The position numbers and the translations under genes are program-made. Under the pieces are notes generated by a model. It made no database searches and had not been told where the DNA came from. It saw only the letters and a program-made list of their open reading frames with translations. From Roseinatronobacter thiooxidans (lineage in GTDB: Bacteria; Pseudomonadota; Alphaproteobacteria; Rhodobacterales; Rhodobacteraceae): DNA of 64,000 nucleotides. How positions within the stretch are numbered: position 1 is the stretch's first letter; every line of letters begins with the position of its first letter. Positions 8,897-38,925 of the stretch are shown here, one piece after another. The stretch lies in contig NZ_MEHT01000007.1 in assembly GCF_001870675.1 (NCBI RefSeq), forward strand, positions 186,001 through 250,000, in the 5' to 3' direction.

Positions 8897-8922
8897 AACG
8901 ACTTGCCCGCCCCCTCGGTTCC
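8897..8922 (-). promoter_or_regulatory. EcfG-type promoter for the DUF1328 gene
   Basis: On the minus strand GGAAC (8922-8918) is separated by exactly 17 nt from CGTT (8900-8897), a full match to the alphaproteobacterial EcfG consensus. The predicted start of transcription is about 40 nt before the ATG at 8850. Confidence 0.85.
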
Positions 8923-8956
8923 GTCCGCGCACAAACGGGTGTAGTGCAGCGCCCAT

Positions 8957-8983
8957 AAAAAAGGCCCGGCATTGCCGGGCCTT
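8957..8983 (-). terminator. Rho-independent terminator of phyR
   Basis: A 10-bp perfect stem (8961-8970 with 8974-8983) has a 3-nt loop and is followed on the minus strand by a run of six T. It sits 20 nt after the phyR stop codon. Confidence 0.9.
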
Positions 8984-9003
8984 CTTCGTGCGGGGGTTAA
9001 AAT

Positions 9004-9798
9004 TCAGGCATTCAGCGTCTGGGTGGAGGCAAAGAACATCGCTTGCGACACAGCAGAGCGCACCTGCTCTTCCTCGAAGGGTTTGGTGATCAGGAATGCC
9101 GGTTCCGGCTTGTCGCCAGTCAACAGGCGTTCGGGATAGGCGGTGATGAAGATCACAGGAATATCAGGGTATTGCGCCAACAGCTCGGTCACGGCTTCAA
9201 CCCCGGAAGAGCTGTCCGCCAGATGGATATCTGCCAATATCAGATCAGGGCGTTCGCGTTTGCCCAAAGCAACCGCTTCTGTATGGGTGCGCGCGATGCC
9301 TGTCACATTATGGCCCATTTCGGCAACAATGCTTTTGATGTCCAGCGCGATCAGCGGCTCATCCTCGATGATCTGGATATGCCCTTGCACGGATTTCGAC
9401 ATTTCGTGATAGGCGATGGCGATCAGTTCCTGCGCCTCGGCCACGGGCACCTGAATAATCTGGGCAATCTGGTCATAGGACAAATCTTCAAGCGAGCGCA
9501 GCAGCAACGCCTCGCGCGTGTTTGGGGTCAGTTCGGCCAGCAATGATTGCGCGCGCGCCTCGATCCCCTCGACAGGGTCAAGGCCGACGGGCGCGCCTGT
9601 GGTCTGCCAGACTGTATGAAATGCCTGAAACAGCGCCAGTTTGGGGGATAACGCATCATCCAGCAGACTGCGATCTTGCAAGATTGCTTCCAGCGTTGCG
9701 GCTGCGTAACTGTCACCCGATTGCTGTGATCCGGTCAGGGCGCGCGCATACCGGCGCAGATAGGGCAGTTGTTTTGCAATCTGCAAAGATGTTGACAT
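9004..9798 (-). CDS. phyR: General stress response anti-anti-sigma regulator PhyR
   Basis: The 264-residue protein has an N-terminal ECF-sigma-like output domain (residues ~5-130, with LPYLRRYARALTG and a sigma-4-like segment LEDLSYDQIAQ) and a C-terminal receiver domain (~140-260) with IEDEPL, the phospho-acceptor Asp in LILADIHLAD, ITAYPE and the KPF lysine. When phosphorylated, PhyR captures NepR and frees EcfG. The ATG at 9798 follows GGGAGA; the frame is open further upstream but that part does not look coding. It is divergent from nepR-ecfG, as in most alphaproteobacteria. Confidence 0.96.
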   Translation of the reverse strand: MSTSLQIAKQLPYLRRYARALTGSQQSGDSYAAATLEAILQDRSLLDDALSPKLALFQAFHTVWQTTGAPVGLDPVEGIEARAQSLLAELTPNTREALLLRSLEDLSYDQIAQIIQVPVAEAQELIAIAYHEMSKSVQGHIQIIEDEPLIALDIKSIVAEMGHNVTGIARTHTEAVALGKRERPDLILADIHLADSSSGVEAVTELLAQYPDIPVIFITAYPERLLTGDKPEPAFLITKPFEEEQVRSAVSQAMFFASTQTLNA

Positions 9799-9893
9799 GT
9801 TCTCTCCCAAGGGTGTGTGCATGAAGTAGTACCATCTTTTCATGTGACAATCAGGGAATTCTGACGTCTTCGGGTAACCATTTAATGTTTCAA

Positions 9894-9919
9894 GGAACCA
9901 AAACACATAACTCTGCGTT
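9894..9919 (+). promoter_or_regulatory. EcfG-type promoter of nepR-ecfG
   Basis: GGAAC (9894-9898), 17 nt, CGTT (9916-9919) is an exact EcfG consensus about 85 nt upstream of the nepR ATG. It implies autoregulation of the stress sigma factor operon. Confidence 0.88.
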
Positions 9920-9926
9920 TGGTTCC
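9902..9926 (-). promoter_or_regulatory. Probable EcfG-type promoter of phyR
   Basis: On the minus strand GGAAC (9926-9922) is followed after 16 nt by TGTT (9905-9902), one mismatch from consensus. It overlaps the nepR promoter within the inverted repeat formed by GGAACCAAA and TTTGGTTCC. Confidence 0.55.
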
Positions 9927-10003
9927 CTGATGCAGCCATGAGCGCTGCCTTGCGCATCCGGCAGGATCATGTCAGGTTTAGAGAAGTTGGAGCCTTTGGC
10001 GAA

Positions 10004-10192
10004 ATGATGATAATGAGTGGTAAGGACGACCCCGATTCCAATGCGATTTCGCCATCGGTGGCGCAACAAATCGATGAGAACCTGAAACGGCTTTACTCCG
10101 ACACCACGTCCGAAGCCCTGCCCCCTAGCCTGACTTCCCTTCTGAATGCGCTGCGAGAGAAAGACGCTCAGAAAAAGTCAGGTGACGAATGA
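10004..10192 (+). CDS. nepR: Anti-sigma factor NepR
   Basis: The small acidic protein (62 residues from the ATG at 10004) has the NepR core QQIDENLKRLYSDTTSEALP followed by LTSLLNALRE. NepR binds and holds EcfG until phosphorylated PhyR displaces it. A GGAG about 11 nt upstream supports this start; nearby in-frame ATGs at 10007 and 10013 are alternatives. The stop overlaps the ecfG start (ATGA), coupling anti-sigma and sigma synthesis. A second NepR-like gene lies at 35860. Confidence 0.94.
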   Translation: MMIMSGKDDPDSNAISPSVAQQIDENLKRLYSDTTSEALPPSLTSLLNALREKDAQKKSGDE

Positions 10193-10767
10193 CCACGGAA
10201 AAAAAGGCGCCCGCGCCTGCTGCCGATCCGCGTAATGAGATTGTCACGCACTTGCCCGCCTTGCGCGCCTTCGCGCGCGGGCTGACAGGAAATGTGTCCA
10301 GCGCGGATGATCTTGTGCAGGATACAGTGCTGAAAGCCTGGAGCAAGTTTGACCAGTTCAAGCAAGGCACCAATCTGCGCGCGTGGCTGTTTACCATTTT
10401 GCGCAATGCGTTTTTGTCACAGCAGCGCAAACGCGCCAAGGAAGTGTCTGACAGCACAGGTAGCTTTGCCGCCAAGCTGGCCTCCAAGCCCGACCATGAC
10501 GGCCGTCTGGCCCTGCAAGAATTGAATGATGCAATGCGCACCCTGCCTGTCGAGCAGCGCGAAGCGTTGCTTCTTGTGGGGGCTTTGGGCTTCTCGGTCG
10601 AGGAAGCTGCCGAAACCTGTGGCTGCGCCCCCGGAACAATCAAAAGCCGCGCCAATCGCGGGCGCAAAGCTTTGGCCGAAATTCTGCATCTCGATCAGGC
10701 AGAACAGATTGATCCGACCGACAGTTCTGTTGCAGCCGTCATGGCCGCGGCCCCGACAATATTCTGA
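10189..10767 (+). CDS. ecfG: ECF sigma factor EcfG (general stress sigma factor)
   Basis: The 192-residue ECF15-group sigma factor has a region 2 core with ADDLVQDTVLKAW and FKQGTNLRAWLFTILRN (residues ~40-75). Region 4 has LPVEQREALLLV and the helix-turn-helix GFSVEEAAETCGCAPGTIKS (~125-155). It directs RNA polymerase to GGAAC-N16/17-CGTT promoters, of which many are visible in this window. It is translationally coupled to nepR and followed closely by a sensor kinase. Confidence 0.96.
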   Translation: MTTEKKAPAPAADPRNEIVTHLPALRAFARGLTGNVSSADDLVQDTVLKAWSKFDQFKQGTNLRAWLFTILRNAFLSQQRKRAKEVSDSTGSFAAKLASKPDHDGRLALQELNDAMRTLPVEQREALLLVGALGFSVEEAAETCGCAPGTIKSRANRGRKALAEILHLDQAEQIDPTDSSVAAVMAAAPTIF

Positions 10768-10792: not shown

Positions 10793-12520
10793 TTGACATT
10801 GCCTGAAATCAGCAACCGTCTGGCGACACGCCTTGCGATCTTGCTGACTCTCGCGCTTGCGCCACTGGGCTCTATTGCCATCTATTCAGAGTTGGAGACA
10901 TGGCAGGCGCGAAAGGCCGCATCTGAATCGCGCCTGATTACCCGCACCGTCGAGACAGTGACCGGCCAGCGCGCCTTGCTTGAAAGTGCCATGCTGGCGT
11001 CAGATACTCTATCGCAGCTGGTTGTTGACAGGTTGGAAAACACAGCCGCCTGTTCTGCCTTTCTGGCAAATTTTATCGCAGATTCAGCGTTTTATGCTTT
11101 TGCAGGCTTTATCGGGGTCGATGGGCTGATGACCTGCATCTCAGAGGGGGAGCCTGTCGATTTCAGCGCAAGCCCGACTTTTGCCGAATCCGTCCAAAAC
11201 CCAAGGGCGTCATTCAGTTTTCAGCCCTCGGGGGCGATTACCGGCCGCCCTGTTGTGCTGATCAACCGCCCTGTATTCGAGGAGGACACCTTGCTTGGCT
11301 TCCTCTCGATCTCGATCTCTCGCAGAAGTTTCGATATGATCGCAACGGCACCGGATAACGAAAACTCGCCGCGCATCTCTTACCTTGTCAACAACCGTGG
11401 CCAGACGCTGACCAGTTCCGACACCCCGGATGCTGACGATTTCCTGCCGGAACCAGAGATGCTGGAACGGATCATCAACCAGCGCGAGGGTGTCTTTACG
11501 GCCCCCAGCTATGGCGGGGACAAGCGGCTGTTCACCATAGCAGAACTGATGCCGGGGCAATTATACGTCCTTGGCAGCTGGAATGCCGCGCAATCCAGCA
11601 ATCTGCGCGAGTTCAATTACTGGCGCGTCGGTTTTCCATTGCTGATGTGGCTGGCCTCGGTCGCGGTGGTGATGTTTGCTGTGCATTATATGGTCGTGCG
11701 GCATCTGCGCCAGATCAACAGGCAGTTGCGGCGCTTCGCCCTTGGCAATCGCGCCGAATTCCAGCGCCTGCCCGAAGAAGCCCCGACCGAACTGCGCGAG
11801 ATTGACTCGACCTTCACCAAAATGGCGCGTCTGATCCGGCGCGACGAAGACGAGCGCGAAGATGCCTTGCGCGAGAAGACAGTCTTGCTGAAAGAGGTTC
11901 ACCATCGGGTTAAGAATAATCTGCAACTCATCGGCTCGATCCTGAACCTGCAATTACGCCGAGTGACCGACACAGAGGCGCGCTGCATTTTGCAAGGGGT
12001 TCAGGCGCGCGTCCGCTCGCTGGCCTCGATCCATCGCAAGCTGTATGAACAAGACCGCCTCTCTTACACGAATGCGACAGATTTCCTTGAAACGATCTTG
12101 CGCGAGACACTGGCCCTTGCGCGGTCCGAACAGGCCGAAATTGATGTGAAGACAGAGTTTGAACCTGTTATCCTGCCGCCTGACAAAATCATCCCGACCG
12201 CGCTTTTATTCGCCGAGGCGCTGACAAACGCGTTGAAACATGCCCAAGCCCCGCAGCCCGATACGCCCCCGCGCCTGACCATCAGTTTCCGCGCACGCGA
12301 CGGATATGCAGATTTGCAGGTGCGCAATTCGCTTGCCGATGCGGGAACCGGAAGCGTGGCCTACGGGTTGGGACAAGAGTTGATGACGGCGTTTGCCCTA
12401 CAGATGCATGCCGAATTTGAAAGCGGCAGGGTGCAGGATGACCAAGGCCATGGCTGGGAATTGCGCCTGCGTCTGGGCGATTCCGGTTTGAATGACACCG
12501 CACCGCACGCACAGGCATAA
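10793..12520 (+). CDS. Sensor histidine kinase, HRxxN (HisKA_2) family, likely general stress sensor
   Basis: A membrane kinase of about 575 residues lies directly after ecfG. An N-terminal helix (RLAILLTLALAPLGSIA), a periplasmic sensor region of ~230 residues and a second helix (VGFPLLMWLASVAVVMFAV) precede a HAMP-like linker. The H-box EVHHRVKNNLQLIGSILNLQ and an HATPase with N-box ALTNALKHA follow. HRxxN kinases linked to PhyR phosphorylate it. The start is uncertain: no ATG or GTG is in frame after ecfG. A TTG at 10793 is used here, but an ATC at 10778 sits 7 nt after GAGGG. Confidence 0.85.
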   Translation: MTLPEISNRLATRLAILLTLALAPLGSIAIYSELETWQARKAASESRLITRTVETVTGQRALLESAMLASDTLSQLVVDRLENTAACSAFLANFIADSAFYAFAGFIGVDGLMTCISEGEPVDFSASPTFAESVQNPRASFSFQPSGAITGRPVVLINRPVFEEDTLLGFLSISISRRSFDMIATAPDNENSPRISYLVNNRGQTLTSSDTPDADDFLPEPEMLERIINQREGVFTAPSYGGDKRLFTIAELMPGQLYVLGSWNAAQSSNLREFNYWRVGFPLLMWLASVAVVMFAVHYMVVRHLRQINRQLRRFALGNRAEFQRLPEEAPTELREIDSTFTKMARLIRRDEDEREDALREKTVLLKEVHHRVKNNLQLIGSILNLQLRRVTDTEARCILQGVQARVRSLASIHRKLYEQDRLSYTNATDFLETILRETLALARSEQAEIDVKTEFEPVILPPDKIIPTALLFAEALTNALKHAQAPQPDTPPRLTISFRARDGYADLQVRNSLADAGTGSVAYGLGQELMTAFALQMHAEFESGRVQDDQGHGWELRLRLGDSGLNDTAPHAQA

Positions 12521-12557: not shown

Positions 12558-13067
12558 ATGTCAGACCCGCAGATCAAGTTGGACGACCCGGTTGACGAAC
12601 ACCGCGCCCTGCATGCGACCGAGTCGCGCATCGCATTGGCGGGGCATCCGCTGCATGCCATGCTGGTGGCCTTTCCCATTGCGCTGACAATGTCGGTCTT
12701 TGGCGCAGACCTTTTGTATTGGTGGACAGGAGATGCGTTCTGGGCGCGCGCCGCAGGGTGGGCGGCCTTCGGCGCATTTCTGCTGGGCGTGGTTGCAGGG
12801 GTTACAGGGACAGTTGAATTGCTGTTGGTGCGGGGCATTCGCAACCGCTCTGCCAGTTGGACGCATTTCATTCTGGCGGTCATGTTGCTGTCGATACTGG
12901 GAACCAACTGGGCCTATCGCATCGGGGATTATGAAGGCGCGGTTTTGCCCTTGGGGCTGATCTTGTCCGCAGTGGCAGCGGGGCTGACGGCGGCCACGGG
13001 CTGGCATGGGGGGAAACTGGTCTTTGACTATCAGATCGGCACCAAAATGCCACAAACCAAGCCCTGA
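12558..13067 (+). CDS. DUF2231 membrane protein
   Basis: The 169-residue protein has four hydrophobic helices and the DUF2231 opening GHPLHAMLVAFPIAL near residue 27, ending in GWHGGKLVFDYQIG near 155. Function is unknown; related proteins are annotated as predicted redox or heme-linked membrane proteins because of the conserved His residues. It starts 37 nt after the kinase stop with GAAAGG before the ATG, so it may be co-transcribed with the stress kinase. Confidence 0.8.
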   Translation: MSDPQIKLDDPVDEHRALHATESRIALAGHPLHAMLVAFPIALTMSVFGADLLYWWTGDAFWARAAGWAAFGAFLLGVVAGVTGTVELLLVRGIRNRSASWTHFILAVMLLSILGTNWAYRIGDYEGAVLPLGLILSAVAAGLTAATGWHGGKLVFDYQIGTKMPQTKP

Positions 13068-13093: not shown

Positions 13094-13119
13094 GGAACCG
13101 ATCCGTCCCCCCGCCCGTT
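13094..13119 (+). promoter_or_regulatory. EcfG-type promoter of the ferric-reductase-like gene
   Basis: GGAAC (13094-13098), 17 nt, CGTT (13116-13119) matches the EcfG consensus exactly. The -10 element ends only 8 nt before the ATG at 13128, so the transcript would be almost leaderless. Confidence 0.82.
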
Positions 13120-13127
13120 AAAAAACG

Positions 13128-14513
13128 ATGAAGGCACCGTCCAAACCCACAACCCGCGTGGCCCGCGCCCACCAGCCCGCCGCAGATCGCCCGTTTGACG
13201 TGGTGATCCATGCAACAGCCCTTTTGGTGCTGGGCGCGGGCGCGGTGGTCGCGCCTTTTGCGGTGTTGCATTATGCAGGGCCTGCCCCCACTGGCGGGGG
13301 AATATGGAATTTCAGCATGGGTCTGGGGTTTGGCGCAATGGCGCTGGCGGCGCTGCAATTCGCGCTGACAGGGCGCTTGCGCTGGATCACGCATCCGTTC
13401 GGGGCCGATATTGTCTATCTGGCGCATCGCTATCTCAGCTGGGGCGCAGTGGCGCTGATGCTGGGGCATTTTGGCCTGCTTTATGTGTTCCACCAACCCG
13501 CGCTTGGTGTCCTCAACCCGCTGGAGGCGCGCTGGGAATTAACCGCAGGGCGCGTGGGTTTGGGCTGTTTTCTGGCACTGATTGTCACATCGGAATTTCG
13601 CAAACGCCTGCATCTGCGCCATGAATGGTGGCGCAGGCTGCATCTGGGGCTGGCGATATCTGGCATGATTGCCGCCACTGCCCATGTGCTGGGCGTGGGC
13701 AATCTGACCGACACGCCCGCCAAGCGCGCGCTATGGCTGGGGGTGACATTCGGGTTTGTGGCGGTGCTGGTCTATACACATCTGATCCGGCCGTGGTTCT
13801 CGGCGCGCAACCCGTGGCGCGTGGTGTCCAACACTGCAGAGCGCGGCGGCGTGCATACGCTGGAATTGGAACCCGAAGGCCGCGCGCTGCATCGCTGGAA
13901 GCCGGGACAATTTGCTTGGCTGAAGATAGACCGCTCGCCCTATTCGCTGGTCGAGCATCCTTTCACCATTTCCACCGCCCCCGAGAAAGGCCCGAATCTG
14001 GCCTTCTCGATCAAGCCGCTGGGCGATCATTCCGCAGAACTGGCGCAAACGCCTGTGGGCGCGCGGGCTTATGTGGATGGGCCTTATGGGGCCTTCTCGA
14101 TCGACCGTATGGCGAAAGCCCCCGGTCTGGTGATGATTGCAGGCGGTGTGGGGATCACGCCCATTCTGGCCAACCTGCATGCGCTGGACGCGCGCGGCGA
14201 CACGCGCCCTGTTATATTGATCTATGCCAACCCGACATGGGAAGAGGCCAGCTTCCGCGAGGAACTGGACGCGATGAAAAGACGCCTGAACCTGACGCTT
14301 GTGCATGTCATCGAAACCCCGCCAGAGGGGTGGCAGGGCGCGCAAGGCCGCGTCAACCGCGAGACGCTGATCCAGCATCTGCCCGCCGATACGCGCAGAT
14401 GGCCGCATCTGCTATGCGGGCCGGGGCCGATGGTGCAGGCCCTGCGCCACGAGTTGCATGATCTTGGTGTCAAACCCCGCCATATCGATTACGAAATCTT
14501 CGAGCTGGTCTGA
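13128..14513 (+). CDS. Ferric-reductase-like transmembrane flavoprotein
   Basis: The 461-residue protein joins an N-terminal six-helix ferric-reductase/NOX-like domain (residues ~20-220, with His in AHRYLSWGA, LGHFGLLYVFH and ATAHVLG as likely heme ligands) to a ferredoxin-NADP reductase module. That module has the FAD motif EHPFTIS near 275, the glycine-rich AGGVGITP near 340 and the C-terminal CGPGPM near 430. It should carry electrons from NAD(P)H through FAD and heme across the membrane; the acceptor is unknown. An exact EcfG promoter lies immediately upstream, with no clear ribosome-binding site. Confidence 0.85.
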   Translation: MKAPSKPTTRVARAHQPAADRPFDVVIHATALLVLGAGAVVAPFAVLHYAGPAPTGGGIWNFSMGLGFGAMALAALQFALTGRLRWITHPFGADIVYLAHRYLSWGAVALMLGHFGLLYVFHQPALGVLNPLEARWELTAGRVGLGCFLALIVTSEFRKRLHLRHEWWRRLHLGLAISGMIAATAHVLGVGNLTDTPAKRALWLGVTFGFVAVLVYTHLIRPWFSARNPWRVVSNTAERGGVHTLELEPEGRALHRWKPGQFAWLKIDRSPYSLVEHPFTISTAPEKGPNLAFSIKPLGDHSAELAQTPVGARAYVDGPYGAFSIDRMAKAPGLVMIAGGVGITPILANLHALDARGDTRPVILIYANPTWEEASFREELDAMKRRLNLTLVHVIETPPEGWQGAQGRVNRETLIQHLPADTRRWPHLLCGPGPMVQALRHELHDLGVKPRHIDYEIFELV

Positions 14514-14691: not shown

Positions 14692-15081
14692 CTATTTGCG
14701 CGGGCGCTCGCGCTTGCGGTTCCTGACTTGGGTATAGACACTGACCCCGAACAGGAACGCTTCCATCAATGCGGGAAACTCTCCTTTCGGTTGGTAATGC
14801 TCACCCCGCGCCGCATTCGCGCGCAACTGCTGGTCGATGGTGGGGATTTCCGGCGCGCCCCGCCCGCGCGCGGCCAGCACAATCAGGCCCACGCCACTTA
14901 GGATCGCGCCGCAGGCCAGATTTGCGACAAGTGGCGAAAACTCTTGCGCAATAACCATCCAGCCCGCCGCAACAAGGAAGCCGCCCCCTGCCAGCAGAAA
15001 GGCCGCCCCCAGTGCTGCCATGACAATCTGGCGCATCTGCCAATGCAGCTTGCGCCTGATCTGTTGGTATGGGACCAGCAT
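14692..15081 (-). CDS. Phage-holin-superfamily (YqjE/DUF1469-like) membrane protein
   Basis: The 129-residue protein has two adjacent hydrophobic helices (residues ~18-70: MAALGAAFLLAGGGFLVAAG and ACGAILSGVGLIVL) between charged termini. This matches the putative holin family that accompanies DUF883 proteins (YqjD-YqjE-YqjK arrangement in enterobacteria). Its ATG overlaps the stop of the DUF883 gene (TGATG), so the two form one operon. It is unlikely to be a phage lysis gene because nothing else phage-like is nearby. Confidence 0.7.
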   Translation of the reverse strand: MLVPYQQIRRKLHWQMRQIVMAALGAAFLLAGGGFLVAAGWMVIAQEFSPLVANLACGAILSGVGLIVLAARGRGAPEIPTIDQQLRANAARGEHYQPKGEFPALMEAFLFGVSVYTQVRNRKRERPRK

Positions 15082-15482
15082 CAGCGGCGCTGCATGACCA
15101 GTGCCAGCAAGAACCCCGCACCCGCCGCAAGGCCCAAGGCAAGGGCCGGGCGCTCCTTGGCGAAATCTTCGGCGGTTCCAAGGACATCTTCCACCTGATC
15201 GGCGGCATAGTCATAGCCTTCGCCCGCTGTCTCGACCGCCCTGCGTCCGCTGCGGCGCGCTGTTCTTGCGGCGTGGCGGGCGGTTTGCTGCCCTGCCCGT
15301 TTCACCGCCGATGTCAGTTCGGCAAGGTCGTTTTTCACAAGCTCAAGCTGCTCGCGCAGCTCGTCATAGGTCAGTTCCGCCAGCTCCTCGACATCTTGGG
15401 CGGTGCGCGCGGCATTATCCTTGGCCTGCGCGGCTTTTGCGCTGATATCCGTGTCCGAATTCTGAGGTGATTGTCGCGCCAT
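15081..15482 (-). CDS. DUF883 (ElaB/YqjD-like) stress protein
   Basis: The 133-residue protein is mainly a long amphipathic helix rich in Ala, Glu, Lys and Arg. It ends in a single membrane helix (RPALALGLAAGAGFLLALVM), the standard DUF883 layout. E. coli YqjD and ElaB are membrane-anchored ribosome-associated stationary-phase proteins. A near-consensus EcfG promoter lies about 150 nt upstream (15627-15651). It is co-transcribed with the holin-like gene. Confidence 0.8.
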   Translation of the reverse strand: MARQSPQNSDTDISAKAAQAKDNAARTAQDVEELAELTYDELREQLELVKNDLAELTSAVKRAGQQTARHAARTARRSGRRAVETAGEGYDYAADQVEDVLGTAEDFAKERPALALGLAAGAGFLLALVMQRR

Positions 15483-15871
15483 GATAACTCCTGTTCGCGC
15501 ACCTGTCCGGCGCGCTGTATGTGATGATGTGTGGGGCGTCTGGCGGGTCAGCTTACTTGGCCAACAGGCCGCTTTGAAAGGATGCCGCGCAAACGCCTTT
15601 GTGCCGAATACATCTAGAAGTTATGTAACTCTTCAAATGCGCGGCGGTTCCAAAGCCTGCAATTTCTTGCCGGAACCCAAGCTGCCGTAACGGCGCGGGG
15701 ACAAACCTCTTGCCTCTTACCGGAATATGCGGCACGCTTTGGGCAGTTGTGGATAAAAAAGGCACATTTCACACCCTTTCGGGGGGAGTGCGCCCCTTCA
15801 AGACAGGAAGTCGCTTGCGTCCCGACACAGATACGACCGTTTTTCAATCGCGCGGGTATTTTGGAAAGTTC
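15483..15871. other. Divergent intergenic region
   Basis: This 389-bp gap between the divergent DUF883 and histidine kinase genes holds the DUF883 leader (~135 nt) and its probable EcfG promoter. It also holds a GGAAC at 15672 on the plus strand that has no -10 partner at the right distance. No credible gene is visible. Confidence 0.6.
15627..15651 (-). promoter_or_regulatory. Probable EcfG-type promoter of the DUF883 operon
   Basis: On the minus strand GGAAC (15651-15647), 16 nt, AGTT (15630-15627) has one mismatch in the -10 element. The predicted leader is about 135 nt. Confidence 0.5.
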
Positions 15872-28590: not shown

Positions 28591-28596
28591 AGTGTC

Positions 28597-28981: not shown

Positions 28982-29029
28982 TATTTGTCAGAGCCTTCAT
29001 GGGGCCAAACGGACTATAGGAGTAGTGTG

Positions 29030-30139: not shown

Positions 30140-30164
30140 GGAACCAACCCGCGCATGTAACGTT
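30140..30164 (+). promoter_or_regulatory. EcfG-type promoter of a 25-residue membrane peptide gene
   Basis: GGAAC (30140-30144), 16 nt, CGTT (30161-30164) is an exact consensus. The predicted transcript would start about 40 nt before the ATG at 30212. Confidence 0.82.
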
Positions 30165-30211: not shown

Positions 30212-30289
30212 ATGCGCGGCATTTTGCTTTGGTTCGTCGGTATTCCCGTCCCTGTCATCATCTTGTTGTTCGTGTTCGGGGTGCTGTGA
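30212..30289 (+). CDS. 25-residue hydrophobic membrane peptide, stress-regulated
   Basis: A short frame reads MRGILLWFVGIPVPVIILLF and a few further hydrophobic residues, with an AGGAAAGG ribosome-binding site about 8 nt before the ATG. It is one membrane helix broken by two prolines. It lies between a terminator and the cytochrome oxidase operon and has its own exact EcfG promoter, which supports it as a real gene. I recognise similar tiny proteins in alphaproteobacteria but no characterised function. Confidence 0.7.
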   Translation: MRGILLWFVGIPVPVIILLFVFGVL

Positions 30290-31589: not shown

Positions 31590-32266
31590 CCCGCCCTGCC
31601 CTTGCCCTTTGCGCGCTTTGCCTGCTGGCGGCCTGCGATGGCCCGCTATCGACCTTGCAGCCCTCTGGGCCGATTGCCACGGAAATTGCGTGGCTGTGGT
31701 GGGCCATGCTGGCGGGTGCTGCGCTGATCACGGTTTTTGTGCTGGGTCTGCTGGCGATGGGCTTTGGCGCACCGCGCAAGACCCAAGCGCGGGTCTGGAC
31801 GCATGGTCTTGGCCTGTGGTTTTCAATGGCGATCCTTGGCAGTGTCTTGGGCGCAGGGCTGTGGGTGGGCGAGCGGATCTTGCCGCGCGATGACGGTGCC
31901 GTGACAGTGCAGGCCCATGCCTTTCAATGGGGGTGGGAATTCACCCATGAAGACGCAAATGGCGCCGCGATGCGCAGCACAGACCTGCTGCATATTCCCG
32001 CAGGCCAGCCCGTGGATGTTCTGATCACATCCGAGGATGTGATCCATTCCTTCTGGGTGCCGCAACTGGCCGGCAAGATGGATGCCATCCCCGGCCGGAC
32101 CAACCGCGCCCGGCTGAAGGCAGATACTCCCGGCATCTATGACGGGATTTGCGCTGAATTCTGCGGCGTGGGCCATGCCCATATGCGCTTTACAGTGCAG
32201 GCGCATGCGGATTGGCCGCCGGATTTGTCCGATGAAGGCACAGAGCAGCAGGAGGGTGCGCCGTGA
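31586..32266 (+). CDS. coxB: Cytochrome c oxidase subunit II
   Basis: The 226-residue protein has a lipoprotein-type N-terminus (CLLAAC lipobox near residue 16), two membrane helices (~35-95) and a periplasmic cupredoxin domain. The CuA site is complete: His in DVIHSFWVP and the C-x-E-x-C-x3-H-x2-M set in ICAEFCGVGHAHM. There is no fused cytochrome c domain, so the electron donor is a separate cytochrome. It is part of the ATGA-coupled oxidase operon. Confidence 0.93.
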   Translation: MTRPALALCALCLLAACDGPLSTLQPSGPIATEIAWLWWAMLAGAALITVFVLGLLAMGFGAPRKTQARVWTHGLGLWFSMAILGSVLGAGLWVGERILPRDDGAVTVQAHAFQWGWEFTHEDANGAAMRSTDLLHIPAGQPVDVLITSEDVIHSFWVPQLAGKMDAIPGRTNRARLKADTPGIYDGICAEFCGVGHAHMRFTVQAHADWPPDLSDEGTEQQEGAP

Positions 32267-34797
32267 CCGATATCCCCACACCCGCCGCCGCATCCGCGCG
32301 CGCGGACAGCGTGCATGTTGCCCCTGCCCCCGCCCAGCGCGCCTTGGCGTTGCACCGCGACTTGACGCGGGTCTGGCGCAATGATCGCGGCCTTTGGGGC
32401 CAGATTACGGCTGTCAACCACACCACGCTTGGCCTGCGCTTCATGGGCACGGCGCTGGTATTCTTTGCCATTGGCGGCATTCTCTCCATGCTGATCCGTG
32501 CGCAGCTGGCCACCCATCAGGGCGCGTTTCTGGACACGGCCCTGTATAACCAGATTTTCACGATGCATGGCAGCATCATGATGTTCCTGTTCGCCATTCC
32601 CATGTTGGAGGGGTTGGGCATCTGGCTTTTGCCCAAGCTTCTGGGCACGCGCGACATGGCCTTTCCGCGCCTGACAGCGCTTGGCTATTGGTGCTATCTG
32701 TTTGGCGGGCTGATCATGCTGACCGCGCTTTTATTCGGCGTGGCCCCGCATGACGGCTGGTTCATGTACACACCGCTGTCGGATGCCACCCATTCCCCCG
32801 GCATCAATGCCGATGTCTGGCTGCTGGGGGTGACATTCGTGGAAATCTCTGCCGTGGCGGCGGCGGTGGAGATTACCGTCACCATCCTGCGCCAGCGCGC
32901 CCCCGGCATGAAGCTGACCGAAATGCCGCTATTTGCATGGTATATGCTGGGCACGAGTGCGATGATGCTGGTGGGGTTTCCGCCGTTGATTGCAGGGTCA
33001 GTGCTGCTGGAGTTGGAGCGCGCCTTTGGCTGGCCCTTCTTCGACCCCACGCGCGGGGGTGATCCGCTGCTGTGGCAGCACCTGTTCTGGCTGTTTGGCC
33101 ACCCGGAGGTGTATATCATCTTCCTGCCTGCAGCAGGCGTTATGTCGATGATCATTCCTGTCATGTGCCGCACGACGATTCTGGGCTACGGGGCTATTGT
33201 TGCGGCCATTCTGGCGCTGGTGTTCCTGTCTTTCGGGCTGTGGGTGCATCATATGTTCACAGTGGGCATTCCGCATATGGCGCTGGCGTTTTTCTCGGCG
33301 GCCTCGGTGTTGGTGGCGGTGCCGACAGCGGTGCAGGTTTTCGCGTGGATCGGCACCATGTGGAAGGGCCATCCGCAGCTGCATCTGCCGATGTATCATA
33401 TCTGCGGCTTTTTCCTGACATTCGTCATGGGCGGGCTGACAGGCGTGATGCTGGCCATTGTGCCGTTCAACTGGCAGGCGCATGACACGGCCTTTGTCAC
33501 CGCGCATCTGCATTATGTGCTGATCGGGGGGTTTGTCTTCCCGATGATGGCAGCGGCCACCTACTGGCTGCCGCTGATCACAGGCAAGGCCCGCATCAGG
33601 GGCGTGGGAGAAGCTGCCTTCTGGGTCATTCTGCTGGGCTTTCACGGCACGTTTTTCATCATGCATCTGACGGGCCTTATGGGCATGCCGCGCCGGATAG
33701 ATGTCTATCCCGACAATCCCGAATGGGTCTGGCTGAACCTGACCTCGTCCATCTTCAGCTTCGTGCTGACAATCGGCTTTGCGATGTTTGTGCTGGACCT
33801 GATCTTGCAGGCCACACTGGGCCAGCGCACGCGGCGCGATCCATGGGATGCGCCAACGCTGGATTGGGCCATGCCGGTCCCCTCGCCCAGTTATAACTTC
33901 GCCTCGCTGCCCATATCGCGGCATCTGGGGCAAAGCGCGCGCGATGCGGTGTTGTCACTGGCGCGGGGCGAAGGGGCCTTGGCGGGGGCGGCACGGGGGC
34001 GACGGGAATTGCTGGTCACATCCGTCGGGGTGGCGCGCCCGCATCATGTGGCCATTCTGCCGGGCAATACGGCGCTGCCCTTGTATCTGTCGGCCAGTAT
34101 CGGGGTGTTTGTGCTGATGATGCTGGCGGGCCAGTATAGGCTGGCCGCGCTGGCGCTGGTGCCAGTGGGCGCGCTGATCTGGGTCTGGGCGCGCGGCATG
34201 GCGCCCGCGGGCGATCTGCGCGCGGTCGAGGTTGCGCCCAACCTGAACCTGCCTGTCCACCACTGTGCGCAGCATAGCTTGGCGCGCACGGGGCTTGCGG
34301 CTGTGCTGGTGGCGGATGGCACGCTGTTCGTCTCGCTGTTGTTCGGGGTGGCGTTTTTGTCTGTGGTCACCCCCGCCACACCGCCACCCGCCGCAGGGGC
34401 CGACACTGTGACAAGTCTGGTCGGGCTGGGGGTGATCGGCATCGCGCTGGTTCTTGCGGCTTTGGTCGGGCGGTTGAACACGCGCAGCGCGGCCGCCCTT
34501 GGGCTGGGCGCGAACCTGCTGGCGCTGGCAGCCCTGCTATGGCTTGCATTCAGCCAGATGGATGACCCCACCGCCCATGCCCGCGACGCGCTGCGCGCAG
34601 CAGTTGCAGGCTATGTCGGGCTGCATATGCTGGTGGCAGCGGCAATGGCGGCCTTCGTGCTGGACCAGTTCCGGCGCGGCGAGATTACCCCGCAGACGCA
34701 GGGTGCCTTGGGGGCATGGCAGATGTGGCAGCACTTTACCACAGCGGTTGCACTGCTCGCGGCGCTGGTTCTTATTGCGCAGGTGGGGGTGTCATGA
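32263..34797 (+). CDS. coxA: Cytochrome c oxidase subunit I fused to subunit III
   Basis: The 844-residue fusion begins with a GTG that overlaps the coxB stop, after GGAGGG. Residues ~40-550 are heme-copper oxidase subunit I: FTMHGSIMM (heme a ligand), HPEVY (280-284, CuB His, gate Glu and cross-linked Tyr), VHHMF (CuB) and TAHLHYV (heme a3 and a ligands). Residues ~590-844 are subunit III-like helices. The D-channel Asp is kept in RDMAFPR, but the Asn residues usually around it are absent, and the position of the K-channel Lys aligns by eye with His374 (LHLPM). Subunit I-III fusions are known in SoxM-type oxidases. Confidence 0.92.
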   Translation: MTDIPTPAAASARADSVHVAPAPAQRALALHRDLTRVWRNDRGLWGQITAVNHTTLGLRFMGTALVFFAIGGILSMLIRAQLATHQGAFLDTALYNQIFTMHGSIMMFLFAIPMLEGLGIWLLPKLLGTRDMAFPRLTALGYWCYLFGGLIMLTALLFGVAPHDGWFMYTPLSDATHSPGINADVWLLGVTFVEISAVAAAVEITVTILRQRAPGMKLTEMPLFAWYMLGTSAMMLVGFPPLIAGSVLLELERAFGWPFFDPTRGGDPLLWQHLFWLFGHPEVYIIFLPAAGVMSMIIPVMCRTTILGYGAIVAAILALVFLSFGLWVHHMFTVGIPHMALAFFSAASVLVAVPTAVQVFAWIGTMWKGHPQLHLPMYHICGFFLTFVMGGLTGVMLAIVPFNWQAHDTAFVTAHLHYVLIGGFVFPMMAAATYWLPLITGKARIRGVGEAAFWVILLGFHGTFFIMHLTGLMGMPRRIDVYPDNPEWVWLNLTSSIFSFVLTIGFAMFVLDLILQATLGQRTRRDPWDAPTLDWAMPVPSPSYNFASLPISRHLGQSARDAVLSLARGEGALAGAARGRRELLVTSVGVARPHHVAILPGNTALPLYLSASIGVFVLMMLAGQYRLAALALVPVGALIWVWARGMAPAGDLRAVEVAPNLNLPVHHCAQHSLARTGLAAVLVADGTLFVSLLFGVAFLSVVTPATPPPAAGADTVTSLVGLGVIGIALVLAALVGRLNTRSAAALGLGANLLALAALLWLAFSQMDDPTAHARDALRAAVAGYVGLHMLVAAAMAAFVLDQFRRGEITPQTQGALGAWQMWQHFTTAVALLAALVLIAQVGVS

Positions 34798-35093
34798 GGT
34801 GGCTTGCGCTTCTTATCAGCGGCCCGATGCTATGGGCGTTCCTGTTCAGCCTGATCTATGCGCTGCATGGTTGGGCCTGCGCAGGCGGAAGCGGCCCGGA
34901 AGGTTTGGATGGGGGCGCACGGATGCTGTTGATCGGCGTCTGGGTTTTGGGGCTGATCGCCTTTATCCCCCTGCTGCGACTGGCCCCATCAGGGCAAGAG
35001 CGGCACCAAAGATTGCCCCGCATGGCCGTATGGATCGGGCTGGCGGCCACGATTGTGACCTTGTTCCCCGTCACTGTAATTACAAGCTGCTGA
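34794..35093 (+). CDS. Small membrane protein of the oxidase operon
   Basis: The 99-residue protein has three hydrophobic helices (MRWLALLISGPMLWAFLFSL, MLLIGVWVLGLIAFIPLL and a C-terminal helix ending in Cys). It overlaps the subunit I-III stop by ATGA and is the last gene of the operon. It may be a subunit-IV-like or assembly partner, inferred from position only. A GC-rich 11-bp inverted repeat follows at 35100-35137. Confidence 0.65.
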   Translation: MRWLALLISGPMLWAFLFSLIYALHGWACAGGSGPEGLDGGARMLLIGVWVLGLIAFIPLLRLAPSGQERHQRLPRMAVWIGLAATIVTLFPVTVITSC

Positions 35094-35099
35094 CAAAAA

Positions 35100-35137
35100 T
35101 GCCCGCCTTGCCACGAGGGACCGGACAAGGCGGGCAA
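35100..35137 (+). terminator. Hairpin after the oxidase operon
   Basis: TGCCCGCCTTG and CAAGGCGGGCA form an 11-bp stem directly after the last oxidase gene. It lacks a U run, so it may be a weak or Rho-assisted terminator. Confidence 0.45.
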
Positions 35138-35325
35138 AGACCCGAGCGGGACCGGGAGGGATGAGAGACCCGACACCCGAGCAGGGACATCCAACCAAAC
35201 GCGGATCACGGATATCGGTTCCAGCGGGTGGCACAGAAAATATCCGTCCTTGCAGGCCCCCTCGCGCAGGCCAAAGCCCCCTGCCAGCACCGGCAAGGGG
35301 CCAAAGACCCAAAGGGGTCACACTG

Positions 35326-35610
35326 TCACTCGCCGGGCAAAGGCTCTGGTTCCGGCGCTTGCTCTGGCTCGAAACTTTGTGGGGCACCCGTGTCCCCTGG
35401 CCCTGAAACGCTGCCCGAAGCGGGCGGGCCAACAGTTTCTTCATCTTGCGCGGGTGCTGCCTGATCTTCGTCTGTCACCTCTGTGCCCAGATTGTTCGAC
35501 AGCATCCATAGCAGGAATACCACCGCCACTGTCACAGCAACCGCCATACCGATCAGCGGGCCTTTGTGGCGCTTTTTCTGCTTTTTCAGATTTGTATCGG
35601 GGGCTGTCAT
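35326..35610 (-). CDS. Single-helix membrane protein, probable general stress gene
   Basis: The 94-residue protein has a basic N-terminus (KKQKKRHKG), one membrane helix (GMAVAVTVAVVFLLWML) and an acidic Pro/Glu-rich tail predicted to lie in the periplasm. No family is recognised. An AGGAAAAG site precedes the ATG, and an exact EcfG promoter lies about 100 nt upstream. The tail composition suggests a low-complexity, disordered region. Confidence 0.7.
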   Translation of the reverse strand: MTAPDTNLKKQKKRHKGPLIGMAVAVTVAVVFLLWMLSNNLGTEVTDEDQAAPAQDEETVGPPASGSVSGPGDTGAPQSFEPEQAPEPEPLPGE

Positions 35611-35705: not shown

Positions 35706-35730
35706 AACGCGCGCACAGCCATCAGGTTCC
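35706..35730 (-). promoter_or_regulatory. EcfG-type promoter of the single-helix membrane protein gene
   Basis: On the minus strand GGAAC (35730-35726), 16 nt, CGTT (35709-35706) is an exact consensus. The leader to the ATG at 35610 is about 85 nt. Confidence 0.82.
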
Positions 35731-35785: not shown

Positions 35786-35810
35786 GGAACCGATTGAAGG
35801 CACAGACATT
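35786..35810 (+). promoter_or_regulatory. Possible EcfG-type promoter of the second nepR-like gene
   Basis: GGAAC (35786-35790), 16 nt, CATT (35807-35810) has one mismatch to consensus and lies 50 nt upstream of the ATG at 35860. Confidence 0.4.
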
Positions 35811-35859: not shown

Positions 35860-36153
35860 ATGACCCCCGCCGCCCATCAGACACAACAGATCAATGAGAA
35901 CCTGCGCCGCTCTTATCCGCTTGGTGCATCGCAGGCGCTGCCGGACCATCTGGCACAGCTTCTTGGCCGTTTCGGGGAACCTGTGGGCAAGCCCCCTACA
36001 GATGGGGCCGAAGCAACCCCAAAGCCGCAGCCTGAACATGGTCAAGCCAGCCAATCTTGTCCAGATCGTCCCCGCGCACCAATCGGGCGCGTTCGCAATC
36101 TGCTTCAAAAATGCGGATTTGTTCAGCCACGAAAGCGGTGTCATAGACGTTAA
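35860..36153 (+). CDS. Second NepR-like anti-sigma factor
   Basis: The 97-residue protein has a NepR core near residues 8-40: QQINENLRRSYPLGASQALP followed by DHLAQLLGRFGE. It lines up without gaps with NepR from 10004 (shared QQI-ENL-R-Y, S-ALP, L--LL). A GAGAGAG site precedes the ATG. The last ~52 codons run antisense through the 3' end of the phospholipase D gene (from 35996) and have odd composition, so the C-terminal tail may be recently acquired or the frame may be broken. Likely a second brake on EcfG or a related sigma factor. Confidence 0.7.
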   Translation: MTPAAHQTQQINENLRRSYPLGASQALPDHLAQLLGRFGEPVGKPPTDGAEATPKPQPEHGQASQSCPDRPRAPIGRVRNLLQKCGFVQPRKRCHRR

Positions 36154-37288
36154 GATTGGCCTCGTCGTTCAAGCGGAAAGAGCGTTCATCGAAATTTGCC
36201 GACCCGACAGAGGCCCAGCATTCATCGACAATCACCAGCTTGGCATGCAGGAATGTCGGCGCGTATTCGTGGATGCGAATGCCCGCGTCCAGCAGCTTGC
36301 GCCATGATGTGCGCGAGACGCGCCGCACCAGCCACGAATCCGTATGTTTGCCTGCGATCAGCAGATCAACCTTCACGCCGCGCGCGCGCGCTTCCAGCAA
36401 TTGCGCAATGGCCACCTTGTCCGGCACGAAATACGGCGTCGAGATGCGGATATGGTCTTGCGCGGCGGCCAGCGCTGTCATGAACATCAGATGAATTTCG
36501 TTGCGGCTGCCGGTATTGCTTTTGACCATCTGGATTTCGGTTGTGCCCACGGGCGAAAGCGGCGGGTAAAATGCCTGCCCGCGCAAAACCTCGCCGCTGG
36601 CTTCCACCCAGTTATGGGCGAAGGCATTTTGCATCAGCGCCACAACTGGCCCTGTGACGCAATAATGCGTGTCGCGCCATTCATCGGGGGTGCGCGCATT
36701 GCCCATCCAGACATCGGCCACGCCAACCCCGCCAATGAAGCCGGTCTTGCCGTCAACCACCAGCACCTTGCGATGTGTCCTGTTGTTCAGGCGCGAGAGC
36801 GTGCGCGGGCGCATGGGGCGGAACATGCGCAACTCTACCCCGCCTGTGTGCATACGCTCGATCAGGTCATCATCCATTGGCAAACCGCCAAACCAGTCGA
36901 TCAGCACCTTTACGGCAATTCCGGCCTGCGCCTTCTCGATCAGCAGGTCACAAAAGCGCGTGCCGATCTGGCCGCTCCAATAGATATAGGTTTCAAAGGT
37001 GATCGAATGCTGCGCGGCGCGGATCGCAGAGAGCATGGCCGCGAATATGGCATCCCCGTTCAGCAAAGTGTCGATCCGGTTACCCCCCATGATGGGGCTG
37101 CCACTCAGCCCGCCCATGTCGCGCGGAAATTGCGGATCACAGGCCGCGGCACCGGGGGGCACGGCGTGGCGCAACTCGCGCCGGTAGGGCATCAGGGCAA
37201 TCAATAAAAACCAGAACAGAACCAGCCCCAGAACAGCGGCCACAGCCGCGCGGATTTTTCGACGGAACCGGTGCGGCAGTCGCGGCAT
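35996..37288 (-). CDS. Phospholipase D family protein (cardiolipin synthase-like)
   Basis: The 430-residue protein has an N-terminal membrane helix (AVLGLVLFWFLLIALMPYRR) and two HKD motifs, THRKVLVVDG (~residue 198) and HAKLVIVDE (~364) followed by SVGSANFDERS. It resembles ClsB/ClsC-type cardiolipin synthases and related phosphatidyltransferases. An exact EcfG promoter lies 38 nt upstream, so cardiolipin or similar lipids are probably made under stress. Its 3' end overlaps the NepR-like gene on the other strand. Confidence 0.88.
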   Translation of the reverse strand: MPRLPHRFRRKIRAAVAAVLGLVLFWFLLIALMPYRRELRHAVPPGAAACDPQFPRDMGGLSGSPIMGGNRIDTLLNGDAIFAAMLSAIRAAQHSITFETYIYWSGQIGTRFCDLLIEKAQAGIAVKVLIDWFGGLPMDDDLIERMHTGGVELRMFRPMRPRTLSRLNNRTHRKVLVVDGKTGFIGGVGVADVWMGNARTPDEWRDTHYCVTGPVVALMQNAFAHNWVEASGEVLRGQAFYPPLSPVGTTEIQMVKSNTGSRNEIHLMFMTALAAAQDHIRISTPYFVPDKVAIAQLLEARARGVKVDLLIAGKHTDSWLVRRVSRTSWRKLLDAGIRIHEYAPTFLHAKLVIVDECWASVGSANFDERSFRLNDEANLNVYDTAFVAEQIRIFEADCERARLVRGDDLDKIGWLDHVQAAALGLLRPHL

Positions 37289-37325
37289 GTTCAAGGCTCG
37301 CTTCTTTGGGAAAGGGCAAATCTGT

Positions 37326-37351
37326 AACGCTGCCCGCCTGCCTTCGGTTCC
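37326..37351 (-). promoter_or_regulatory. EcfG-type promoter of the phospholipase D gene
   Basis: On the minus strand GGAAC (37351-37347), 17 nt, CGTT (37329-37326) is an exact consensus, about 38 nt before the ATG at 37288. Confidence 0.85.
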
Positions 37352-37368
37352 CGAAATTCGCCGCACTT

Positions 37369-37394
37369 GGAACCATTTACCAAGATCACGCGTT
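37369..37394 (+). promoter_or_regulatory. EcfG-type promoter of the AI-2E family gene
   Basis: GGAAC (37369-37373), 17 nt, CGTT (37391-37394) is an exact consensus, divergent from and 17 bp away from the phospholipase D promoter. Confidence 0.85.
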
Positions 37395-37419
37395 CTGTAG
37401 TGTGACGCCTTCCCCGTAA

Positions 37420-38628
37420 TTGCTGGATATCCCCTTGCCCCTGCCTGCGCCCGACCTCAAACGCTCCGATGATGCTGGCGCAGAGCGCCGCGCCGCTGTG
37501 CCCTCGACAGCGGTGGTGGGGATTTTCATCATCCTGTTGCTTGCCGCTATTCAATATGCGCGCGAATTCCTGCTGCCTGTGGTGGTGGCGTTGTTGCTGT
37601 TCTTTGTCTTTGTGCCCTTGCAGCGGCGCGCGCAGCGCATTGGCCTGCCGGGCTCGGGCGTTGCTGCGGTATTGGTGCTTAGCCTGTTGATGGGAATTGC
37701 GGCAATATTTTTCCTGCTTAGCGGGCCGATCATGGAAGTGGCCAATAACCTGCCCGATATCGTGCGCGACATCACTGCCAGAATTGAAGCGGCGCGCGAT
37801 GTCTTTCTGGCTGTCATTCAGAATTTCCGCGCCGGGGCCGAGAATGACATCCCCGATCTGCGCCCTGCGCGTATCGCCGAAGACGGGGAAAATGGCGATG
37901 AGGAAGATGATCTGTTAATGAGCACAGTAAGCGGCGCGCTGCTGTACCTGACCGAGACACCCGCGATGGTTGCGCAGGTCATCTTTGCATTGGTGCTGTT
38001 GTTCTTCTTGCTGTCTTCCAGCGACCTGATCTATCTGAAAATCATCCAGAGTTTTGACGGCTTTGGCGAAAAGCGCGCAGCCCTGACTGCCCTGCGCGAG
38101 GTCGAGCGCAACCTTGGCGGTTATCTGGGCACTGTCAGCTTGATCAATGCAGGGCTGGGGGTCAGCATTGGCCTTGCCATGTGGGCGCTGGGTATGCCGG
38201 TGCCGCTGTTATTTGCGGTGCTGGCATTCTTGTTGAATTTCATTCCCTATCTGGGCGCGGTCATGGGGGTTGTGCTGGCGTCAGTTGTGGCGCTGCTATG
38301 GTTCAACACATTGTCCAGTGTGCTGTTGGTGGGCGGGGTGTATCTGCTGCTGACATCGCTGGAAGGGCAGTTGATTACCCCTGCCTTTCTGGCAAAACGC
38401 CTGCGCATGAACACTGTGCTGGTGTTCCTGTCGGTCGCGTTCTGGGCATGGATGTGGTCGTTTCTGGGCATGCTGATTGCTGTGCCCATTCTGGTGGCGC
38501 TGCGCGTCATCGCAGAGCAGGTGCCCCGCTGGCATGTGTTTGCAAACCTGCTGTCGGGTTCGGCGGCGCAGCTTCCCGCCACATCAGAGCTTGAGATGCC
38601 ACCATCCCGCCCCTCAGACGCCGATTGA
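37420..38628 (+). CDS. AI-2E family transporter (PerM/YdiK-like permease)
   Basis: The 402-residue polytopic protein has the family layout: two N-terminal helix pairs (residues ~25-90), a soluble middle (~95-170) and C-terminal helices. The late conserved GGVYLLLTSLEGQLITP and GMLIAVPILVALRVI are present. Members export small molecules or ions and some confer salt tolerance. The start is probably the TTG at 37420, since a TAA in frame ends at 37419 and no good ATG follows; there is no clear ribosome-binding site. Expression is predicted from an exact EcfG promoter. Confidence 0.85.
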   Translation: MLDIPLPLPAPDLKRSDDAGAERRAAVPSTAVVGIFIILLLAAIQYAREFLLPVVVALLLFFVFVPLQRRAQRIGLPGSGVAAVLVLSLLMGIAAIFFLLSGPIMEVANNLPDIVRDITARIEAARDVFLAVIQNFRAGAENDIPDLRPARIAEDGENGDEEDDLLMSTVSGALLYLTETPAMVAQVIFALVLLFFLLSSSDLIYLKIIQSFDGFGEKRAALTALREVERNLGGYLGTVSLINAGLGVSIGLAMWALGMPVPLLFAVLAFLLNFIPYLGAVMGVVLASVVALLWFNTLSSVLLVGGVYLLLTSLEGQLITPAFLAKRLRMNTVLVFLSVAFWAWMWSFLGMLIAVPILVALRVIAEQVPRWHVFANLLSGSAAQLPATSELEMPPSRPSDAD

Positions 38629-38632
38629 AAGT

Positions 38633-38659
38633 CCCGGTGCCACCAAAGGTGGCACCGGG
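38633..38659. terminator. Bidirectional hairpin between AI-2E and csbD genes
   Basis: A perfect 12-bp stem (38633-38644 with 38648-38659) with loop AAA lies between the two convergent stop codons. No U run is present. Confidence 0.6.
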
Positions 38660-38667
38660 TCGGGCGA

Positions 38668-38865
38668 TTACCGGCCGGAAGACCAGCTATCGACCTGCTT
38701 TTCGGCCTCGTCCTTGGCGATCCCGTATCTTTCCTGAACCTTGCCAACAAGCTTGTCACGCTTGCCTGCGGCCTGATCAAGATCGTCATCGGTCAGCTTG
38801 CCCCATTGGTCCTTTGCTGACCCTTTCATCTGTTTCCATTTGCCTTCGATCTGGTCCCAGTTCAT
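38668..38865 (-). CDS. CsbD family stress protein
   Basis: The 65-residue hydrophilic protein has the CsbD pattern: MNWDQIEGKWKQMKGSAKDQ, then WGKLTDDDLDQAAGKRDKLV. CsbD is a general stress protein of unknown mechanism in Bacillus and is widespread in proteobacterial stress regulons. A near-consensus EcfG promoter lies about 35 nt upstream. It is convergent with the AI-2E gene. Confidence 0.92.
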   Translation of the reverse strand: MNWDQIEGKWKQMKGSAKDQWGKLTDDDLDQAAGKRDKLVGKVQERYGIAKDEAEKQVDSWSSGR

Positions 38866-38900
38866 GACACTCTCCTTTTACTGAACACATGTCCCCCTAT

Positions 38901-38925
38901 AACCCGCAGGATTGGGCAAGGTTCC
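38901..38925 (-). promoter_or_regulatory. Probable EcfG-type promoter of csbD
   Basis: On the minus strand GGAAC (38925-38921), 16 nt, GGTT (38904-38901) has one mismatch. The same GGTT variant precedes the PRC-barrel gene. Confidence 0.6.

Follow-up and report, generated by a model that had tools for sequence, protein, structure and literature searches.

We analysed 64,000 nucleotides of Roseinatronobacter thiooxidans DNA (contig NZ_MEHT01000007.1, positions 186,001 to 250,000; hereafter the window). Judged from the DNA alone, phyR-nepR-ecfG, the locus that regulates the general stress response in Alphaproteobacteria, is very probably packed there together with about a dozen target units of its sigma factor EcfG. 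The core system, the EcfG general stress response, is already known, and the additions to it are the packing, a family of candidate small RNAs (sRNAs) and a two-way promoter between phyR and nepR-ecfG. Thirteen credible EcfG-type sites, eight exact and five with one mismatch, lie within 30 kb. They mark DUF1328-DUF2383, phyR, nepR-ecfG, a ferric-reductase-like gene, a DUF883-like/holin-like pair, a PRC-barrel gene, a 25-amino-acid open reading frame with an oxidase operon, a 94-amino-acid protein, a second nepR, a cardiolipin-synthase-like gene, an AI-2E transporter, csbD and the sRNA candidate. The locus thus amounts to a list of probable direct targets in a single 30-kb stretch, several of them without known function.

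Exact sites were defined as GGAAC-N16/17-CGTT on either strand, and nine were found in the window. A first-pass annotation of the same DNA had listed eight, all of which were recovered by pattern search with the same coordinates and strands, and had omitted the ninth, at 35198-35222 on the minus strand, which is the candidate promoter of the sRNA. Its estimate was about one exact site per 64 kb of random sequence; 100 dinucleotide-preserving shuffles of the window gave a mean of 0.68 and a maximum of 4. All nine sites are intergenic, in a window that is only 12% intergenic; site 8897 is counted so with the DUF1328 start at the ATG at 8850, and would be genic if an upstream TTG were taken as the start. 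The 400 permuted-word controls gave a mean of 1.2 matches each, one control reaching 8 in all, and a mean of 0.125 with a maximum of 2 when only intergenic DNA was counted. Between 7.5 and 40.5 kb, five intergenic one-mismatch sites were found, ahead of phyR, DUF883, PRC-barrel, the second nepR and csbD, exactly where they had been annotated. In the whole genome (3.50 Mb, 50 contigs) there are 51 exact sites, nine of them inside 28.5 kb where 0.415 are expected (binomial p 3e-10). If C is required at the sixth base (GGAACC), eight of the genome's 15 sites fall in this cluster; the only exact island site without this base is 28566-28590.

The identity first assigned to the regulator genes was confirmed by Pfam matches for PhyR, NepR and an extracytoplasmic function (ECF) sigma factor. 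phyR (9004-9798, minus strand) matches PhyR_sigma2, PhyR_sigma-like and Response_reg (PF22029, 90.7 bits; PF22233, 42.5 bits; PF00072, 52.1 bits). On the plus strand, nepR (9938-10192) scores 33.8 bits against NepR PF18557 (cut-off 25.7) over residues 43-76, and may really start at one of the ATGs near 10004-10016. It is followed by ecfG (10189-10767), which was assigned to the EcfG type from its Sigma70_r2 and Sigma70_r4_2 matches and its place behind nepR, and which is 88-89% identical in the relatives G165 and G153. Next comes a PhyK-like histidine kinase gene (10793-12520, plus strand) with a HisKA_2 domain and a dCache match under its cut-off; it aligns over nearly the full length of the PhyK profile NF051872 with 208 bits, the equivalog cut-off being 750. 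EcfG-type sites precede both regulator units, an exact one for nepR-ecfG and a one-mismatch one for phyR. By the established pathway, stress would act through the kinase on PhyR, phosphorylated PhyR would take up NepR, and the freed EcfG would direct RNA polymerase to the sites of the island.

Conservation in the genus was consistent with such a regulon. Among the matches listed, 11 congeners carry largely the same gene set in varying order, and the sites travel with the genes when the order changes. A site was found within 250 nucleotides upstream in 88 of 92 gene-by-genome cells for member genes (65 exact), as against 5 of 81 for other genes (none exact), four cells running off a contig and six marked as cut having been excluded; the cells are not independent, because some genomes are close relatives (G177/G182, G154/G173). 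DUF883 was tallied separately, with a site in 2 of 11, and lies behind csbD in most of the other genomes among the matches listed. Clustering was also seen elsewhere: 35 kb of G153 hold 10 of its 23 sites, 16 kb of G149 hold 9 of 30, and 17.5 kb of G182 hold 12 exact GGAACC sites, out of 31 in its 4.4 Mb. Of 37 genomes of the genus, 19 (the present one included) have an ecfG match of at least 64% identity, two have only a paralogue at about 52%, and 16 gave no ecfG match at E 1e-30. The median density of GGAACC sites was 4.69 per Mb with ecfG and 1.98 without (p 5e-6, with genome sizes rounded), and the reversed pattern differed in the opposite direction, not significantly (p 0.10). The annotated EcfG regulon is thus supported by sites that are enriched, intergenic, well placed, kept in relatives and scarcer where ecfG is absent.

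Three points weigh against this reading. Member genes lacked a site in 4 of the 92 cells. Because of kinship among the genomes compared and the incompleteness of several, the p-values serve only as guides. Finally, the island is not the whole regulon, since 42 of the 51 exact sites are found elsewhere in the genome. These 42 comprise 24 within genes and 18 intergenic ones (p 5e-7 against 12%); the intergenic enrichment for which the first-pass annotation had proposed a genome-wide search was thus present both in the window and beyond it, and part of the regulon seems to be dispersed.

The promoters of the two regulator units proved to be interleaved. The first-pass annotation had correctly placed a site for nepR-ecfG and one for phyR, and had overlooked that they face each other within 33 bp (9894-9926, both strands): the exact site for nepR-ecfG occupies 9894-9919 on the plus strand and the one-mismatch site for phyR 9902-9926 on the minus strand. 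The window version reads GGAACCAAAACACATAACTCTGCGTTTGGTTCC. Of 20 ecfG loci in 19 genomes, 19 show the layout GGAAC(C)-N1-2-AACG...CGTT-N1-2-G(G)TTCC, 32-34 bp long, with both sites exact in nine of these 19, one exact in six and one mismatch in each site in four. Among 20 loci gathered by EcfG similarity, some of which are contigs of the same genomes, 13 had an exact overlapping pair, and none was present in the Oceanicaulis locus L016. As a general alphaproteobacterial trait the arrangement was rejected: among 385 genomes of the class, a sample that held five of the family, the strict two-way pattern occurred only in the present one and G582, and it requires GGAACC at both ends and so misses looser forms. 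About 200 bp from the G582 match is a receiver-domain protein, and no phyR-ecfG locus was found within the 3 kb read.

Since the element leaves no room for two polymerases, each initiation should yield either a phyR or a nepR-ecfG transcript. RNA polymerase would use the shared 33 bp in one direction at a time, and this exclusive firing would set the ratio of phyR to nepR-ecfG transcripts. The element may thus be a compact promoter at which expression of the activator and the inhibitor of a switch could compete. It is quite conceivable, at a little under even chances, that these are instead ordinary divergent promoters which overlap by history and without effect on output. Promoters of compact divergent genes frequently overlap. 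What speaks against such an accident of history is that the 32-34 bp spacing is held in 19 of 20 loci while the inner bases vary.

The ninth exact site lies ahead of a gene-free stretch with a strong terminator, whose T-run is present on the minus strand only, and would drive a terminated RNA of about 95 nucleotides (35095-35192, minus strand); a defined 5' end is thereby predicted. The first eight copies of this candidate were located through motif, position and similarity. A plain DNA search of 149 family genomes returned no genome but the own one, and one of 37 in the genus returned two congeners; covariance models were needed. A first model was built from six of the eight copies with the promoter sequence left out. 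At E below 1e-4 it gave 12 matches in the genus, namely the six training copies, those of G154 and G173, and four new ones (second copies in G177 and G182, and copies in G178 and G160). A site lay directly upstream in 12 of 12 (10 exact, 2 one-mismatch) and in 0 of 20 weaker matches. A second model added G171, G179, G158 and G156, all with one-mismatch sites, and a contig-end copy in G167 that is cut before the -35 element. In total, 17 copies at E below 1e-4 were found in 15 of the 19 ecfG-carrying congeners and in none of the 18 others (Fisher p 5e-7).

The copies share more than a terminator. In 15 of 16 measurable ones UGUYCC starts 7-8 nucleotides behind the -10 element; in the exception, G178, the first UGUYCC lies 1 nucleotide behind and a second, by eye, 8 nucleotides behind. 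The covariation score was 0.383 compared with 0.183 in shuffles, and single folds of 7 of the 17 copies were 4.5-7.1 standard deviations below shuffles. In the predicted folds, the unpaired 5' UGUYCC and a pyrimidine-rich loop form an exposed C-rich 5' part, which would base-pair with mRNAs at purine-rich stretches, in the manner of GsrN in Caulobacter. An Rfam search of the candidate returned no family match. A small-protein gene was considered and rejected: several 5' ends carry a start-like codon, but the frames span 3-44 codons and encode no common protein.

In the window the sRNA candidate lies about 25 kb from ecfG, and in G153, G182, G177, G149 and G173 it likewise belongs to the island. 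It adjoins the oxidase operon at the operon's 3' end, and 14 of the 17 copies are at or near that position (in G149 with one gene between). The element might therefore be taken for a mere terminator or a 3' untranslated region of the oxidase operon or the 94-amino-acid gene without a promoter of its own, and terminators do yield weak model matches elsewhere. We consider this improbable. Three copies argue against a mere terminator: they lie elsewhere (G177 C18, G182 C3, G178 C86), on contigs other than that of ecfG, and each has an exact site immediately upstream. Moreover, the T-run is confined to the minus strand, conservation extends beyond the terminator to the 5' UGUYCC and first hairpin, and all 16 copies with readable upstream DNA are preceded by a site (10 exact, 6 one-mismatch).

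The proposed EcfG-dependent sRNA also has evidence on the other side. Four ecfG-carrying genomes (G155, G161, G169 and G184) gave no match below 0.01, two genomes without ecfG gave weak matches with no site upstream (G164, 0.004; G183, 0.006), and one match outside the genus reached 5.4e-5 (G373), again with no site. In addition, two-sided changes in 7 of 10 pairs of the first long hairpin and 15 of 27 pairs of the whole structure were counted in an alignment fitted to that structure. With stricter filters, a search of 345 family genomes gave the own copy as the only strong match; ten other genomes gave 11 weak matches, none with a site upstream, which look like shared terminators. One of these 11, at G185 C1:533579-533663 in another genus, is a hairpin-terminator element laid out like the sRNA, possibly a relative under other control or a product of chance.

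Taken together, these features suggest a tentative picture of the stress response of this clade, one that we hold somewhat likelier to fail than to stand in full. It would be organized as a compact island in which one symmetric site of 32-34 bp fires phyR or nepR-ecfG exclusively, thereby fixing how much activator is made relative to inhibitor plus sigma factor. An independently evolved GsrN counterpart, lying beside the far end of a stress-linked oxidase operon and with its seed at the very start of the RNA, would extend the response to mRNAs without EcfG sites.

A different source of the sites was also considered, namely that they serve another ECF sigma factor, for example a second EcfG-like protein on contig C1 (G000 C1:309625-310068, 54% identical). 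Its gene has three exact sites within about 17 kb (C1:293257, 300584, 302331), and EcfG paralogues of Methylobacterium extorquens are described in the available text as recognizing similar promoters (PMC4814048). This explanation is hardly to be expected, as the sixth-base C is present in none of these three sites compared with 8 of 9 in the island, and as it is the primary ecfG round which the sites cluster. With 0.9 and 4.0 sites per Mb, the two congeners that have only a paralogue offer too few for a decision. The sites at C1:300584 and C1:302331, which are exact without the sixth-base C, precede two PRC-like genes 7-9 kb from the paralogue. Chance matches in G+C-rich DNA, to which the 24 intragenic sites outside the island, the 176 matches of the reversed pattern and the probable case of 28566 might point, are largely excluded by the shuffles, the permuted-word controls and the conservation in relatives, and we regard them as a negligible explanation of the whole.

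As far as the accessible portions of the papers go, the locus resembles the PhyR-NepR-EcfG systems of other Alphaproteobacteria in that phyR is divergent from nepR-ecfG with a kinase gene beside it and EcfG-type promoters precede both units (PMC8103513, PMC4814048, PMC7083833). It differs from these systems, as described there, in its interleaved regulator promoters and in about a dozen more target units within 30 kb, including the oxidase operon and the sRNA candidate. The order phyR, small NepR-like gene, sigma gene and kinase gene is shared with RSP_1271-1274 of Rhodobacter sphaeroides, a member of the same bacterial order, in which the available text assigns PhyR a role in membrane stress and not in general stress; the promoter island and the candidate EcfG-dependent sRNA set the window apart from that locus as described (PMC5830050). 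The likeness to GsrN of Caulobacter, which depends on EcfG/SigT, is one of description: both have an EcfG-type promoter, a short stand-alone RNA with a C-rich exposed 5' part, and usually a place near the regulator locus, whereas the window family adjoins an oxidase operon and carries UGUYCC right at its predicted 5' end (PMC5869019, in the part available). Counterparts of GsrN are predicted there in Rhizobiales, and the word Rhodobacter does not occur in the available text. The papers on EcfG regulons, in their accessible parts, mostly concern other orders. In the accessible parts of the openly licensed literature, no EcfG-dependent sRNA, promoter island or interleaved phyR/nepR promoter in Rhodobacteraceae was found, which is weak evidence of novelty.

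The second nepR-like gene (35860-36153, plus strand) scores 22.7 bits against Pfam NepR, under the cut-off of 25.7, and its orthologues in G153 and G165 score above it (28.2 and 41.9 bits). It is preceded by a one-mismatch site with the -10 element CATT (35786-35810, plus strand), likewise one-mismatch in both relatives, and GGAACC-N15-CATT is found upstream in all three genomes. Its product might supply negative feedback. According to the available text, META2_0735 of M. extorquens likewise encodes a second NepR-like protein, lies behind an EcfG-type promoter of its own and has a negative effect (PMC4814048); unlike it, the window copy sits in the island beside the 94-amino-acid and cardiolipin-synthase-like genes. 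Its 3' end shares 158 bp, tail to tail, with that of the latter, and residues 9-37, the NepR-like part, are encoded ahead of the overlap.

The remaining marked genes are as follows, beginning at the left end of the island. An exact site at 8897-8922 (minus strand), with a counterpart ahead of the orthologue in all 9 relatives (exact in 8), precedes the DUF1328 small membrane protein (8677-8850, PF07043, 59.9 bits) and, behind it, the DUF2383 protein (8105-8611, PF09537, 68.4 bits), both on the minus strand. A DUF2231 membrane protein (12558-13067, plus strand; PF09990, 126.6 bits) is followed by an exact site at 13094-13119 (plus strand; 10 of 10 relatives, 7 exact) and the ferric-reductase-like flavoprotein gene (13128-14513, plus strand; PF01794, PF08022, PF00175). 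The holin-like membrane protein (14692-15081) and the DUF883-like protein (15081-15482), both on the minus strand and with Pfam matches under cut-off, share a one-mismatch site at 15627-15651 (minus strand), which is exact in G153 and G165, where the DUF883 gene stands alone. From 15.7 to 28.3 kb, no exact or one-mismatch intergenic site was found; the genes there encode a kinase, a glycosyltransferase-methyltransferase, a cytochrome b561, sulfatase-like and LPG-synthase-like proteins, a DUF3047 protein and a 1326-amino-acid hybrid kinase, and the stretch is mostly common to G153 and G165, not to the compact islands of G182 and G177.

The exact site at 28566-28590 (plus strand) had been over-credited as an EcfG promoter and is probably a chance match. 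It lies 440 bp ahead of the next gene and lacks the sixth-base C, its surroundings do not align to G153, the nearest complete relative, and a DNA search with 28530-29000 returned only the own genome among 149. As a promoter of the PRC gene or of an sRNA it was therefore rejected. The better PRC candidate is the one-mismatch site at 28957-28981 (plus strand), which aligns to G153 and is one-mismatch in 5 of 6 relatives; the PRC-barrel gene follows at 29030-30040 (plus strand; PF05239).

An exact site at 30140-30164 (plus strand) precedes a hydrophobic micro-reading frame of 25 amino acids (30212-30289, plus strand) and the cytochrome c oxidase operon (30367-35093, plus strand), which family searches resolved into CtaG, UPF0093, COX2, COX1 (844 amino acids) and a 99-amino-acid protein. 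Counterparts of the site lie ahead of ctaG in 4 of 5 relatives and ahead of the micro-reading frame in 3 of 3, and tblastn matched the latter in L057, L068, L062, L060, L058 and L014 (E at most 2e-6, 59-80% identity). In COX1 (32263-34797) the subunit I profile spans residues 48-551; the remaining 290 residues or so are without any match and may be a fused subunit.

Beyond the sRNA candidate, an exact site at 35706-35730 (minus strand; exact in 10 of 10 readable relatives) precedes the 94-amino-acid gene (35326-35610, minus strand), whose product has one hydrophobic stretch, as read from its sequence, and no Pfam or NCBIfam match. Two exact sites then precede diverging units: 37326-37351 (minus strand; exact in 5 of 5 relatives) the cardiolipin-synthase-like phospholipase D protein (35996-37288, minus strand; PLDc_2; TIGR04265 248 bits, cut-off 290), and 37369-37394 (plus strand; 7 of 9 relatives) the AI-2E family transporter (37420-38628, plus strand; PF01594). 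The gene csbD (38668-38865, minus strand; PF05532), a direct target in Sphingopyxis according to the available text (PMC7083833), has a one-mismatch site with the -10 element GGTT (38901-38925, minus strand) that is exact in 11 of 11 relatives.

A small membrane protein of about 60 amino acids is encoded in several other loci, in three of them behind an exact site (L062:15349-15531, L059:300-491, L070:10706-10888); it had no good match in the window. The exact site at C11:52642, with a nearly identical spacer in other congeners, is probably not an EcfG site, as it contains an inverted repeat and adjoins photosynthesis genes (named by eye). Two exact GGAACC sites outside the island precede genes named by eye from their translations, C44:107503-107528 a CarD-like gene and C44:146422-146447 a ribosome-hibernation-like gene.

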